From assembly GCF_963667985.1 (NCBI RefSeq), contig NZ_OY764081.1, positions 744,001-808,000 on the forward strand: 64,000 bases of DNA. The letters are read 5' to 3'. A model generated the notes under the pieces. That model saw only the letters and a list, made by a program, of their open reading frames with translations. It ran no database searches and was not told where the DNA came from. Both the position numbers and the translations under genes were made by a program. This DNA is from an uncultured Methanocorpusculum sp. GTDB lineage: Archaea; Halobacteriota; Methanomicrobia; Methanomicrobiales; Methanocorpusculaceae. Shown here one piece after another: positions 20,974-57,817 of the stretch (position 1 is the stretch's first letter; every line of letters begins with the position of its first letter).

Positions 20974-21771
20974 TTATACGTAATCCTTTTTTCTATAGCA
21001 GCCCAGTTCTTTGACGCCGGTGATCTTCTTCAATTCCGTGATCGTCGCCTGCCAGCCGGGATCAGTCTCAAAATCGATGAAAAAGACATATCGTCCAATC
21101 CCCTCCTTCGACGGCCGGGACTCGATACGCGTCAGATTGATTCCCCTTTGTGCAAAGATCCCCAAGATCCCGTACAACAGACCCGGACGGTTTTCTCTTG
21201 GGATGATGACGACACTGCATTTTTCGGGGTCATCCGGATTTTTCTCACCGGCTGATATCTCAAGAAACCGGGTGGTATTGTTGAGTGAATTTTGAATATC
21301 CTTCTGCAGTATGGGCAGATCATACAACTTTGCGGCGCTTTCCGTCGTTACGGCCGCCGATCCGCTGATAAACGACGCCTCTTTGGCACTCTGGGCATTG
21401 CTGCTTGTGTGGATGAGAGCCGCCTTTTTCATGCCGTTTAGATAGATACTGCATTGTTCATGCGACTGCGGGTGAGTGTAGATGACCGAGATCTCGTCCG
21501 GCTTGTATCTTGAAACGAAGAAATGACGAATCGGCATAAAATATTCAGCGGTGATGCGGCACTCCGTCTGTAAAAGGCCGTCCAGCGTTTCGCCAACGCC
21601 GCCCGCTTCGCTGTTTTCAACCGGAACTATGCCCCGGATATTTTTCTCGAGAACTGCCGTGAAAACATCCCGGATTGTTGGAAACATCAGGATCTCTTCA
21701 TTTTCATTCCTGATTTTTTCGGCAAGCTCGCAGGAGAACGTGCCTTTTGGTCCAAGTGCCGCTAACGTCAT
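20974..21771 (-). CDS. pheA: Prephenate dehydratase
   Basis: A 265-residue monofunctional enzyme converting prephenate to phenylpyruvate for phenylalanine. The catalytic domain begins LAALGPKGTFS and has the conserved NTTRFLEI motif (about residues 163-170). The C-terminal ACT domain (NRPGLLYGILGIF, then ESRPSKEGIGRYVFFIDFE) binds phenylalanine for feedback inhibition. It overlaps tyrA by four bases and is the last gene of the aromatic operon. Confidence 0.96.
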   Translation of the reverse strand: MTLAALGPKGTFSCELAEKIRNENEEILMFPTIRDVFTAVLEKNIRGIVPVENSEAGGVGETLDGLLQTECRITAEYFMPIRHFFVSRYKPDEISVIYTHPQSHEQCSIYLNGMKKAALIHTSSNAQSAKEASFISGSAAVTTESAAKLYDLPILQKDIQNSLNNTTRFLEISAGEKNPDDPEKCSVVIIPRENRPGLLYGILGIFAQRGINLTRIESRPSKEGIGRYVFFIDFETDPGWQATITELKKITGVKELGCYRKKDYV

Positions 21772-22634
21772 TTCATCTTCACCAGGGTATCTATCATAAG
21801 ATCAGTCTCATCCGTTGCCTGGGGGATGTAGGCTCTGAATGCATTGCTGTTTCCCGTGAAGAACGCAGCGAACTTCTCCGAATCCTTCGATGCAACGATC
21901 GCTTTCAGGGTATTGACCGAATCCGACATTTTTTCAATAACGCCGGCTGTTTCCGGGTTCATCTGCAGTATGTCTGCATACAGGTCCGGATCCTGCCCGA
22001 GGATTCTCCCGACCAGCCCGAGTTCTATCCGGTACACCGGACTCATCACCGGAAGAATTGCTTCAAGCGGGATGCCGGTATTTTTTATCGTCTCGGCGAC
22101 GGATAGAGTCGTGAAGTGTACAAGCCCCTGGACGATGCTCATGATTTTGTCATGCTCTTTAGGTTCCATCTGACAAATCTTGGCTCCTTCGTTCGTAAAG
22201 ATCTGATAAAGCATGTCCCGGGTTTTCCCATCGCATCTGACCGGCGATGCCGCGATCGTCTGACCAAAGATCGTGGAAACCGAGGGACCGAACATCGGAT
22301 GCAGGCCGATAACCTGCGCTTTGGATTTCAGCATCGCCTCAACCGGAGCAGTTTTTATTGAGGTCAGATCGCACAGAAGCTGCTCTTTGTTCAAGAGCGG
22401 AGCAATTTCATCGATCACCCGGACGGTGTCATGAATCGGAACAGAGACGATAACGATATCGCAGGTAGAGGCAATATCCGCGTTGGAGACCGGTGTTTTT
22501 CTCCCCGAACATACGACTTTATAGCCTGCCCGTTCGAAGACGGCCGAGAACAGACGTCCCATTCCGCCGAAACCGCCGATTATGCCAACGATATCTCCCG
22601 GATTCACGTCTTTATCTCCTGCGAATGATTTCAT
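21768..22634 (-). CDS. tyrA: Prephenate dehydrogenase
   Basis: A 288-residue NAD(P)-dependent enzyme converting prephenate to 4-hydroxyphenylpyruvate for tyrosine. The dinucleotide-binding loop is GIIGGFGGMGRLF (about residues 17-29), and GLHPMFGPSV carries the catalytic His region. There is no fused chorismate mutase and no clear ACT domain. It sits 43 bp after aroA' and overlaps pheA. Confidence 0.95.
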   Translation of the reverse strand: MKSFAGDKDVNPGDIVGIIGGFGGMGRLFSAVFERAGYKVVCSGRKTPVSNADIASTCDIVIVSVPIHDTVRVIDEIAPLLNKEQLLCDLTSIKTAPVEAMLKSKAQVIGLHPMFGPSVSTIFGQTIAASPVRCDGKTRDMLYQIFTNEGAKICQMEPKEHDKIMSIVQGLVHFTTLSVAETIKNTGIPLEAILPVMSPVYRIELGLVGRILGQDPDLYADILQMNPETAGVIEKMSDSVNTLKAIVASKDSEKFAAFFTGNSNAFRAYIPQATDETDLMIDTLVKMK

Positions 22635-22677
22635 GTCTTGTCTGACCTGATGATTCTCTGTTTCGTTTCATGCCACT

Positions 22678-23475
22678 TCAATCCTCTGTCAGCAGGATCT
22701 CGATTGCCTCTTCTGCAGTTCTTCGTTCATGGACAATCATCGCTGCAGCCCTGACGAATTTGTCCGGATATTTGTGCTGGAATGCATTTCTCCCAATAGA
22801 CACCCTGGCAACTCCCCCTTCCATCGCTCCCTCGATCAGCTGCATGGTGGCCAGATCACTCATTTTGGAACCTCCGGCAATAACTACCGGTACATGACAT
22901 CCTTCGGTTACTTCCCTGAATGAATCGGGGTCTCCGGTGTACACGGTTTTGATGATGTCGGCCCCAAGTTCCGAACCCACGCGGGCCGCGAGTTTGACGG
23001 CTTCATGCATGTTTTCGGATTTGATGTCTTTTCCTCTGGGGTACATCATCGCAAGAAGCGGCATTCCCCATTCGATACACTCGACGGCGACACGTCCAAG
23101 ATCGCTGAGCATGTTTGCTTCATTTTCTGCGCCGATATTTACATGCATGGAAACGCCGTCCGCTCCCAATTTCAGGGCATTCTGGACGTTGTTGACCAGT
23201 ACTTTGTTGTTCGGATCCGGTCCAAGATCCGTACTTGCGGATAGGTGCAGGATCAAGCCGATGTCCGGACCGCCTTTCCGGTGACCGTGTAGGGCGAGGC
23301 CCATATGACCGATTACGGCGTTGGCTCCTCCTTTTGCGACCAGATCGACCGATCTTTCCAGATCGATCAGCCCGGGAATCGGTCCGATGGAAACTCCGTG
23401 ATCCATCGGGACGATGACGGTTGTTCCTGTATCTCTTTTCATGATTCTTTCGAGTCTGATTTCTTTACCTCTCAT
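22678..23475 (-). CDS. aroA': 2-amino-3,7-dideoxy-D-threo-hept-6-ulosonate synthase
   Basis: A 265-residue class I aldolase of the archaeal ADH synthase family, the first step of the alternative route to 3-dehydroquinate, which bypasses DAHP. Visible are [10 protein letters not shown] near residue 23, DIIKTVY with the Schiff-base lysine, and the phosphate-binding [11 protein letters not shown] and ISIGRNAFQ-type segments near the end. The ATG has a GGAGC ribosome site 7 bases upstream. It leads the operon aroA'-tyrA-pheA and has a long, structured leader with an aromatic-rich short reading frame. Confidence 0.95.
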
Positions 23476-23520
23476 GTTTGGGCTCCTTTTTCATTTTCTT
23501 GTTTTTGATCTTTGGAAAAA

Positions 23521-23617
23521 TCTGGTATCCACTGCACCAGAGGAGTTCCCGATAAAAGGCTTGGTTTATTTTATGGAGATCTATTCTGGTGCAGTTTGAC
23601 TACTGTCTAAACCAGAA
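23521..23617 (-). promoter_or_regulatory. Candidate leader-peptide attenuator of aroA'-tyrA-pheA
   Basis: On the minus strand four segments can pair in turn. Region 1 is TTCTGGT (23617-23611), region 2 ACTGCACCAGAA (23595-23584), region 3 TCTGGTGCAGT (23541-23531), region 4 ACCAGA (23526-23521). 1:2 pairs over 7 bp, 2:3 over 11 bp, 3:4 over 6 bp with a 9-base loop, and 3:4 is followed directly by TTTTT. Region 1 lies inside the Phe-Trp-Phe codons of a short reading frame whose stop (23602-23600) falls between regions 1 and 2. This is the layout of bacterial trp/phe attenuators. A rival reading is a DNA operator, because a TATA-like ATAAAATA lies between regions 2 and 3. Confidence 0.6.
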
Positions 23618-23818
23618 CTGATAGCTAATGCTAAAAATGCCAGCTACGCTGACGTATACAAATGATAGAACGTCCATTACTGAGGACAGAACATCTTCAA
23701 AAGGCGAGTTGTGCGATGTGCTTGGTACAGAGCTTCTGCTGGCGGCGATTCCTCGCTCTGCTGACAGACAGTCATTGCACATGTTAGTATAAGTTATCAT
23801 GATAGGTAATAAAACCAT
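23600..23818 (-). CDS. Putative aromatic leader peptide
   Basis: A 72-codon frame ending in FSISYQFWFRQ. Seven of its last 20 residues are Phe, Tyr or Trp, while the first 47 contain only two. In-frame ATGs at 23818, 23800, 23782 and 23677 could start it; the last gives 25 residues. None has a clear ribosome site, and a TATA-like GGTTTTATTACC near 23815 would allow a leaderless start near 23782. It ends inside the candidate attenuator, on the same strand and just upstream of the aromatic operon. It could be a chance frame, but its end and position are suggestive. 23819-23928 holds nothing I can name. Confidence 0.5.
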   Translation of the reverse strand: MVLLPIMITYTNMCNDCLSAERGIAASRSSVPSTSHNSPFEDVLSSVMDVLSFVYVSVAGIFSISYQFWFRQ

Positions 23819-57730: not shown

Positions 57731-57817
57731 GCCGAGATAGTCTAGTCCGGAAAGGCGGTGGCCTTGAAAGCCTCTGGTAGTAATACCTCGGGAGTTCAAA
57801 TCTCCCTCTCGGCGCCA
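57731..57817 (+). tRNA. tRNA-Ser(TGA), CCA encoded
   Basis: The acceptor stem is GCCGAGA / TCTCGGC, with discriminator G and encoded CCA. The anticodon loop reads CTTGAAA, so the anticodon is TGA (Ser, UCN codons). The T arm is GGGAG TTCAAAT CTCCC. A long variable arm, typical of Ser, lies between. The anticodon stem GTGGC / GCCTC contains one T-T mismatch. It follows thiI by 70 bp. Confidence 0.93.

Follow-up and report, generated by a model that had tools for sequence, protein, structure and literature searches.

How does a methanogenic archaeon sense the supply of aromatic amino acids, and could translation of a leader peptide be the means? Gene control through a ribosome that stalls on a leader peptide is textbook knowledge for bacteria, with trpL, pheL and hisL as ribosome-mediated transcription attenuators. 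The question arises from a locus on the minus strand of the window, by which we mean the whole 64,000-nucleotide stretch analysed, from a Methanocorpusculum genome of 1.76 Mb; a sequence-only reading had noticed there a short frame with aromatic codons at its end and four pairing segments, regions 1 to 4, upstream of aroA'-tyrA-pheA, and had likened the arrangement to trpL and pheL. From the comparison of sequences described here, we consider it likely, with a probability of roughly 0.8, that the region acts as a ribosome-mediated, cis-acting amino acid sensor for aroA'-tyrA-pheA. Leader-peptide control of this archaeal aromatic operon is strongly supported by the comparison, and translational attenuation is probable in many genera of the Methanomicrobiales. 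If this reading is true, archaea use translation to sense amino acids, with comparative support that spans a whole order, and the leader loci become test objects in culturable methanogens.

The genes behind the leader were identified by NCBIfam and Pfam matches above their cut-offs, which confirmed the proposed operon; all coordinates of the locus refer to the minus strand. The first gene, aroA' (22678 to 23475), encodes 2-amino-3,7-dideoxy-D-threo-hept-6-ulosonate synthase (ADH synthase; TIGR01949, 332.5 bits against a cut-off of 299.45), tyrA (21768 to 22634) encodes prephenate dehydrogenase (PF02153 and PF20463), and pheA (20974 to 21771) encodes prephenate dehydratase with an ACT domain (PF00800 and PF01842). 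The claimed short frame ending Tyr-Gln-Phe-Trp-Phe-Arg-Gln-stop is present and belongs to a longer ORF of 60 codons plus stop (23782 to 23600), which reads MCNDCLSAERGIAASRSSVPSTSHNSPFEDVLSSVMDVLSFVYVSVAGIFSISYQFWFRQ, ends SISYQFWFRQ-stop and has no Pfam or NCBIfam match. A known RNA family was ruled out for the leader region, as Rfam covariance models at the gathering score matched the window only at a tRNA (57731 to 57814), with no riboswitch or T-box found.

To place this leader in context, loci were collected at two levels. Within the genus, an orthologous aroA' with at least 90% identity was found in 6 of 25 genomes, the window genome included, and the rest held a paralogue of 49 to 55% identity, weaker matches or, in one genome, nothing. 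Across the order, aroA' was present in 182 of 232 genomes at an E value of at most 1e-100. Upstream regions were fetched for 136 loci, of which 133 were assessed; L121 and L232 were dropped as contig ends and L208 because the search expression missed its start. Four loci, L004, L122 and L123 with one reading frame and L124 with two, were classed by eye, and their starts were confirmed by the TATA and start analysis.

A leader with an aromatic end precedes aroA' in all 133 assessable Methanomicrobiales loci, the four classed by eye among them. All six orthologue loci of the genus carry a short ORF that starts ATGTGY and ends FWFRQ-stop, and 11 loci of the window type have FWF or FWY before RQ-stop. 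Since our first order-wide choice of ORF maximised aromatic content, a frame-fixed test was run to remove that bias, in which the frame was set by a conserved start element, blind to aromatic content, at 112 loci, all with two-frame leaders (see below). Phe, Tyr and Trp made up 0.496 of the last 15 codons in this test; the two alternative frames of that DNA gave 0.102 and 0.198, and the remainder of the leader ORF 0.091. Every one of the 112 loci had at least 4 aromatic codons among the last 15, and the last ten codons were 28% Phe, 26% Tyr and 6% Trp. The remaining 21 loci, where the ORF was chosen by aromatic content, had 4 to 10 of 15. By the richest 15-codon ORF end, the mean was 7.3 aromatic codons versus 3.3 in shuffles; the observed count was matched by none of 40 shuffles in 88 of 126 loci and by at most 2 of 40 in 110 of 126. 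As a control, 20 paralogue loci from the same genus scored 0 to 6 of 15. The last aromatic codon stands 1, 2 or 3 codons ahead of the stop in 119 of 123 loci. Outside its aromatic end the peptide appears little conserved, because non-synonymous exceed synonymous pairwise codon differences among Methanocorpusculum leaders (138 versus 62). An ORF enriched in codons for the product amino acids, just 5' of the operon, is a sequence trait of leader-peptide attenuators, and the aroA' loci have it.

The position of the promoter bears on how such a leader would be translated. A TATA-like octamer (at least 7 of 8 matches, centred 25 to 32 nt before the homologous ATG) was found in 118 of 129 loci; the corresponding counts among 129 were 4 for windows placed 100 nt further upstream and 11 for shuffled windows. 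Archaeal TATA boxes lie about 26 nt before the transcription start site; given the observed spacing to the ATG, the mRNA 5' end should therefore fall within a few bases of the leader ATG. In the window, the TATA box TTTTATTA (23807 to 23814) is centred 28 nt 5' of the ATG at 23782, and the leader is probably leaderless. The spacing across loci also moved the leader start, which had been placed at an ATG at 23818; we rejected that codon in favour of the ATG at 23782, which is conserved and has the TATA box at the proper distance. It had been held against the locus that no ribosome site precedes the short frame and that a TATA-like box lies between regions 2 and 3. A probable leaderless start answers the former, since leaderless initiation requires no Shine-Dalgarno site. 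As for the latter, TTTTAT (23557 to 23552) was rejected as a promoter, as it pairs with ATAAAA (23574 to 23569) in the inner stem-loop (23552 to 23574) of the hairpin formed by regions 2 and 3.

Regions 1 to 4, the stop codon and the T5 all lie where the sequence-only reading had put them. Region 1, TTCTGGT (23611 to 23617), falls within the Phe-Trp-Phe codons, and the stop TAG (23602 to 23600) separates it from region 2, ACTGCACCAGA (23585 to 23595), the 5' arm of the main hairpin, which overlaps ACCAGAA (23590 to 23584). The 3' arm, region 3, is TCTGGTGCAGT (23531 to 23541), and the proposed terminator half (23516 to 23526) consists of region 4, ACCAGA (23526 to 23521), and T5 (23520 to 23516). 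The 11-bp inverted repeat of regions 2 and 3 was reached by 1 of 300 dinucleotide shuffles of 23476 to 23620, so that base composition by itself is an improbable source of it. Predicted energies are -10.0 kcal/mol for 1:2, -25.7 for 2:3 and -7.9 for 3:4, so that 2:3 is expected to outcompete 1:2 plus 3:4; region 1 is able to pair with region 4 while 2:3 is formed. The 2:3 hairpin was further evaluated in alignment A1 of the window clade (8 of 9 alignable loci, L006 left out; near-duplicates were removed here and in alignments A2 and A3 below). Over its 23 pairs, 95.7% of cells were paired, versus 41 to 51% for slid partners. Four pairs had changed on both sides, a number reached by 4 of 500 shuffles, and the covariation score was reached by none of 500; further pair types were no better than in shuffles (154 of 500). 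The 1:2 pairing is kept in nine clade loci at -9.3 to -11.2 kcal/mol and also forms in the fold of L122. As had been claimed, 1:2 and 2:3 are mutually exclusive, and the pair of alternatives is kept in Methanocorpusculum and in g21, the genus with the closest aroA'.

Next to these alternatives, the accessibility of the aroA' Shine-Dalgarno site was evaluated. In the window genome, the Shine-Dalgarno-like AAGGAG (23483 to 23488) lies outside the hairpin and is not paired by it, as it would be in an ermC-like leader, and a modelled stall lowers its opening cost only a little, from 2.6 to 1.3 kcal/mol. CTCCT (23545 to 23541) was entertained as an anti-Shine-Dalgarno as an idea only, and the opening-cost model shows no clear effect of it in the clade. 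Across the order, the stretch from leader stop to aroA' ATG had a median fold z-score of -1.75 (n = 123) versus -0.10 in control windows (n = 122), with z below -2 in 38% of loci versus 6.6% of control windows; as only 38% reach that value, the hairpin is not significant in every genome. Covariation of the hairpin was weak in alignments A2 (12 of 14 loci) and A3 (14 of 17), from two other groups. Of 123 minimum-energy folds, 75 had at least 3 nt of the aroA' Shine-Dalgarno hexamer, the threshold for counting it as paired, in pairs with RNA upstream of it. The letters that pair with it differ between genera, and the pairing and its place after the leader stop persist.

A stalled ribosome was then modelled with the last aromatic codon in the A site and an assumed footprint of 16 nt from the P-site codon. 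Its front edge came to lie 4 to 10 nt past the first base of the stop in 119 of 123 loci, and in 108 of 123 it extended beyond the base where pairing begins after the stop. The median opening cost of the Shine-Dalgarno site fell from 5.7 to 2.5 kcal/mol in the model (n = 123), with a gain of at least 2 kcal/mol in 65 loci and, in 42, a gain of at most 0.5 kcal/mol or harder opening. L143, L162 and L204, where the automatic choice took another stop, are outside the fold z-score, stall-model and Shine-Dalgarno counts and inside the frame-fixed test.

Comparative sequence establishes the leader, its aromatic end, its position and the hairpins, and from these we infer leaderless transcription, translation, stalling, a switch and its direction. 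Transcription would begin at or beside the leader AUG, and ribosomes would translate a leader that ends mostly in Phe and Tyr codons, with some for Trp. A shortage of charged tRNA for these would stall them one to a few codons ahead of the leader stop. In many Methanomicrobiales, the stalled ribosome would extend into the 5' arm of the hairpin just after the stop and block its formation, leaving the aroA' Shine-Dalgarno free and aroA'-tyrA-pheA translated, in an ermC-like geometry. With an ample supply of aromatic amino acids, the ribosome would terminate and depart, the hairpin would form and aroA' translation would be low. Translational attenuation is the more general reading, because overlap of the hairpin with the aroA' Shine-Dalgarno is frequent in other genera. 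Methanocorpusculum and g21 leaders have two additional codons, Arg-Gln, which would set the stall further back; there it would hide region 1 and free region 2 for the large 2:3 hairpin; a ribosome at the stop would cover part of region 2. The window genome thus holds a candidate 1:2/2:3 switch, whose output may be premature termination at the T-run or control of aroA' initiation.

For the window, the sequence-only reading had taken 3:4 with T5 as an intrinsic terminator and 2:3 as its antiterminator. Such classical trp/phe-type transcription attenuation seems rather unlikely to us, even though the layout suits it: the stop codon lies between regions 1 and 2, the edge of a ribosome stalled at Phe-Trp-Phe would be 4 nt past the stop's first base, region 2 begins 7 nt past it and would stay free, the mutually exclusive 1:2 and 2:3 are both kept in the clade, and T4 to T5 runs follow region 3 in the nine loci inspected. 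The difficulty lies in the terminator, as the predicted energy of 3:4 is -6.2 to -7.9 kcal/mol for Methanocorpusculum and only -1.9 to -4.1 for three g21 loci, and the runs have only 4 to 5 T, which upholds the earlier reservation that the T run is short. Moreover, 2:3 is far more stable than 1:2 plus 3:4, and pairing of the Shine-Dalgarno itself in 75 of 123 loci fits translational control. Of a conserved antiterminator 2:3 and a terminator 3:4 with T-run, the clade retains the former, and the latter is not conserved outside Methanocorpusculum. What is supported of the likeness to trpL and pheL is the aromatic leader and a ribosome switch 1:2/2:3, and relatives conserve the aromatic codons and the 2:3 pairing with its two-sided changes; the terminator step, with 3:4 weak and kept only in Methanocorpusculum, is not supported.

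It is also conceivable that the translated leader only couples translation to aroA', through a terminating ribosome or re-initiation, with no amino acid sensing. The leader stop lies 35 to 127 nt before aroA' in the 112 two-frame loci, which would allow this, but coupling accounts neither for an aromatic share of one half among the last 15 codons, in that frame alone and before an aromatic operon, nor for the place of the last aromatic codon beside the stop; we regard it as quite improbable. Still less credible is that a regulator uses the inverted repeats as DNA operators and that the ORF plays no part. Repeats of TCTGGT/ACCAGA do occur in both orientations in Methanocorpusculum, and other genera have an 18-nt direct repeat close to the start, but hairpin sequences vary by genus while pairing and position after the leader stop persist, and the aromatic enrichment is strictly in frame.

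Most of the leaders assessed are divided over two frames, the conserved ATG opening frame A and the aromatic end lying in frame B (112 loci by rule, L162 among them, plus L124 by eye); Methanofollis is one of the genera with such leaders. Frame A has 14 to 22 codons in most loci, typically MxGECFFAGECFYL-stop, and frame B is offset by +1 in all 102 loci with a correctly called stop. Near the inferred mRNA start, two-frame genomes carry an 18-nt tandem unit, GGTGAATGTTTTTTCGCC (for example, L115, L165 and L225), in two copies in most loci and, by eye, three in g34 and g40 loci. The cassette GTGR-N4-YTTT, one per 18-nt unit, is present in all 112 two-frame loci (one in 17, two in 95) and in 1 of 20 one-frame loci (L199); the window genome has a one-frame leader without it. 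In a strict form, the motif was present in 45 of 120 genomes, one copy in each, and never in the reversed control; it lies 100 to 450 nt upstream of aroA' in 41 of the 41 that could be checked, four of the 45 having no listed gene coordinates. When 54 distinct leaders of the simplest type are compared, most positions in the first 42 nt show little or no variation, where a change would be silent in one frame or the other; the 18-nt unit is constrained in two reading frames, frame B being constrained upstream of site 2. In 98 of 105 loci, no more than 0 to 2 codons separate the Tyr codon of the second site from the frame A stop that follows it, whether TAG, TAA or TGA. The first stop of the third frame is spread over 3 to 73 codons, with clusters at 4 (20 loci) and 9 (14 loci) that are due to the relatedness of the loci.

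Bacterial prfB (RF2) uses a +1 programmed frameshift, with a Shine-Dalgarno-like element before a slippery codon and UGA in the A site. Two-frame genera have the corresponding elements, an offset that is always +1, a conserved slippery site and an upstream Shine-Dalgarno-like element a few nucleotides before YUU-U, and as in prfB the frames are fused in some lineages. They differ from prfB in that the gene is an archaeal leader peptide, aromatic sense codons rather than UGA would occupy the A site, the spacing is 4 nt instead of 3, and the copies stand two or three in tandem. Two frames offset by +1 and linked through cassettes of a Shine-Dalgarno-like element and a slippery Phe codon suggest either a starvation-gated +1 frameshift or an internal start, and so point to a possible archaeal +1 frameshift.

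We tentatively propose, at somewhat less than even odds, a two-stage gate in most sampled Methanomicrobiales, that is, a starvation-regulated programmed +1 frameshift followed by the frame B stall. The ribosome would begin at the leaderless AUG of frame A, and tandem copies of GGUGA-N4-YUU-U, where the A-site codon is Phe UUC or Tyr UAY, would provoke a +1 shift into frame B, favoured under shortage of Phe- or Tyr-tRNA. The aromatic end of frame B would then stall the ribosome on the hairpin that hides the Shine-Dalgarno, and an unstarved ribosome would end at the frame A stop, far from the hairpin. Frame B might instead start independently at a GTG (97 loci) or ATG (14) inside frame A, found before site 1 in 111 of 112 loci, in an alternation of G and A that resembles a start codon; the constraint on frame B upstream of site 2 agrees with this. 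Such an internal start is a serious contender that we nevertheless hold to be short of an even chance: no Shine-Dalgarno was seen before the GTG or ATG in the sequences inspected, the codon lies about 7 nt from the inferred 5' end in most genera, and both the T-run loss in one-frame leaders that keep GTGA and the conserved frame A stop are left unexplained.

On the frameshift proposal, the gate would have been lost, with the frames fused, in Methanocorpusculum, Methanogenium and three other genera. One-frame leaders occur in g1 (Methanocorpusculum), g6, g8, g19 (Methanogenium) and g21. By eye, g19 and g6 have one base fewer than their two-frame relatives, at the first and the second T-run, respectively, and the loss yields the same peptide as a +1 shift would; in the other one-frame genera the sequences are too diverged to trace a base loss. 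The one-frame leaders of g1 and g21 may go back to one shared event, as their aroA' are 83 to 90% identical although the families differ.

How does the locus compare with known systems? Like trpL, pheL and hisL, it has a leader rich in codons for the product amino acids and a stop beside alternative pairings among which a stall is expected to choose; unlike them, it is archaeal, its leader is probably leaderless, the 3:4 terminator is unconvincing beyond Methanocorpusculum and, in 75 of 123 loci, the Shine-Dalgarno is predicted to be paired by the hairpin. In ermC-type leaders, according to excerpts of a review (PMC5009743), a ribosome stalled on the leader opens a structure that hides the downstream initiation site, and telithromycin-induced frameshifting in such a leader can also open it. 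A stall in the archaeal leader would likewise open a structure over the downstream initiation site, with the difference that aromatic amino acid shortage, not a macrolide, would be the signal. Candidate LEU elements of Actinobacteria, as far as excerpts of PMC1262725 describe them, share a leader with product amino acid codons and a structure involving the Shine-Dalgarno; they are bacterial, and the run of codons is itself the partner of the Shine-Dalgarno in a pseudoknot.

Frameshifting in the phenylalanine leader peptide gene pheL of Escherichia coli is called apparently incidental in the same excerpts of PMC5009743; the shift signal described here, itself putative, is conserved across the order and absent from 19 of 20 one-frame leaders. 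Those excerpts also consider +1 shifting very likely in one archaeal virus, and excerpts of a 2021 review (PMC8211752) give one archaeal frameshift case, a -1 shift. Coupled transcription-translation has been reported in archaea, according to parts of PMC7858274. No archaeal leader-peptide attenuator was found in the open-access literature searched, either in the titles and opening lines of abstracts among the matches listed or by exact phrase, subscription journals lying mostly outside this search; excerpts of PMC13158618 mention attenuation only for the ilv operon in general and for Corynebacterium in a reference.

A wide spread of the leader beyond the Methanomicrobiales was rejected. The nearest other hosts of aroA' outside the order comprise 49 loci (L063 to L111). 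A gene start could be read in 41 of them, and L063, L109 and L110 alone among these reach 6 or 7 aromatic codons of 15. L110, from a Deltaproteobacteria bin, has an ORF ending GFFWWWYPHL-stop 97 nt before aroA' that resembles an ordinary bacterial aromatic leader peptide. Within the order, the window aroA' is 83 to 90% identical to that of g21, from another family (L112 to L114, L122 and L123), and only 69 to 72% identical to that of g2, from its own (L235 to L241). Since aroA' is closer to g21 than to g2 and the FW(F/Y)RQ-stop leader is common to the window and g21, the operon and leader (20974 to 23782) were likely transferred horizontally. In 19 of the 25 genus genomes, some more than 90% complete, the search detected no orthologue of this operon's aroA', and these members are possibly auxotrophic for aromatic amino acids.

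A similar long leader before trpE was also looked for and rejected, none of the aroA' kind being found in 14 trpE loci, which have a different small element. In 10 of the 14 (L245 to L254; in the window genome, G000:C1:558604-558622), the trpE start codon lies within a 19-mer, GGTGATGCCGGTGGAATGG, that is conserved without any change. It occurs once per genome in 34 of 120 genomes and never reversed, and read as a micro-ORF it gives MPVEW, with an overlap between the Trp codon and the trpE ATG. Upstream of the 19-mer, TGTACA is present in several of the ten loci.
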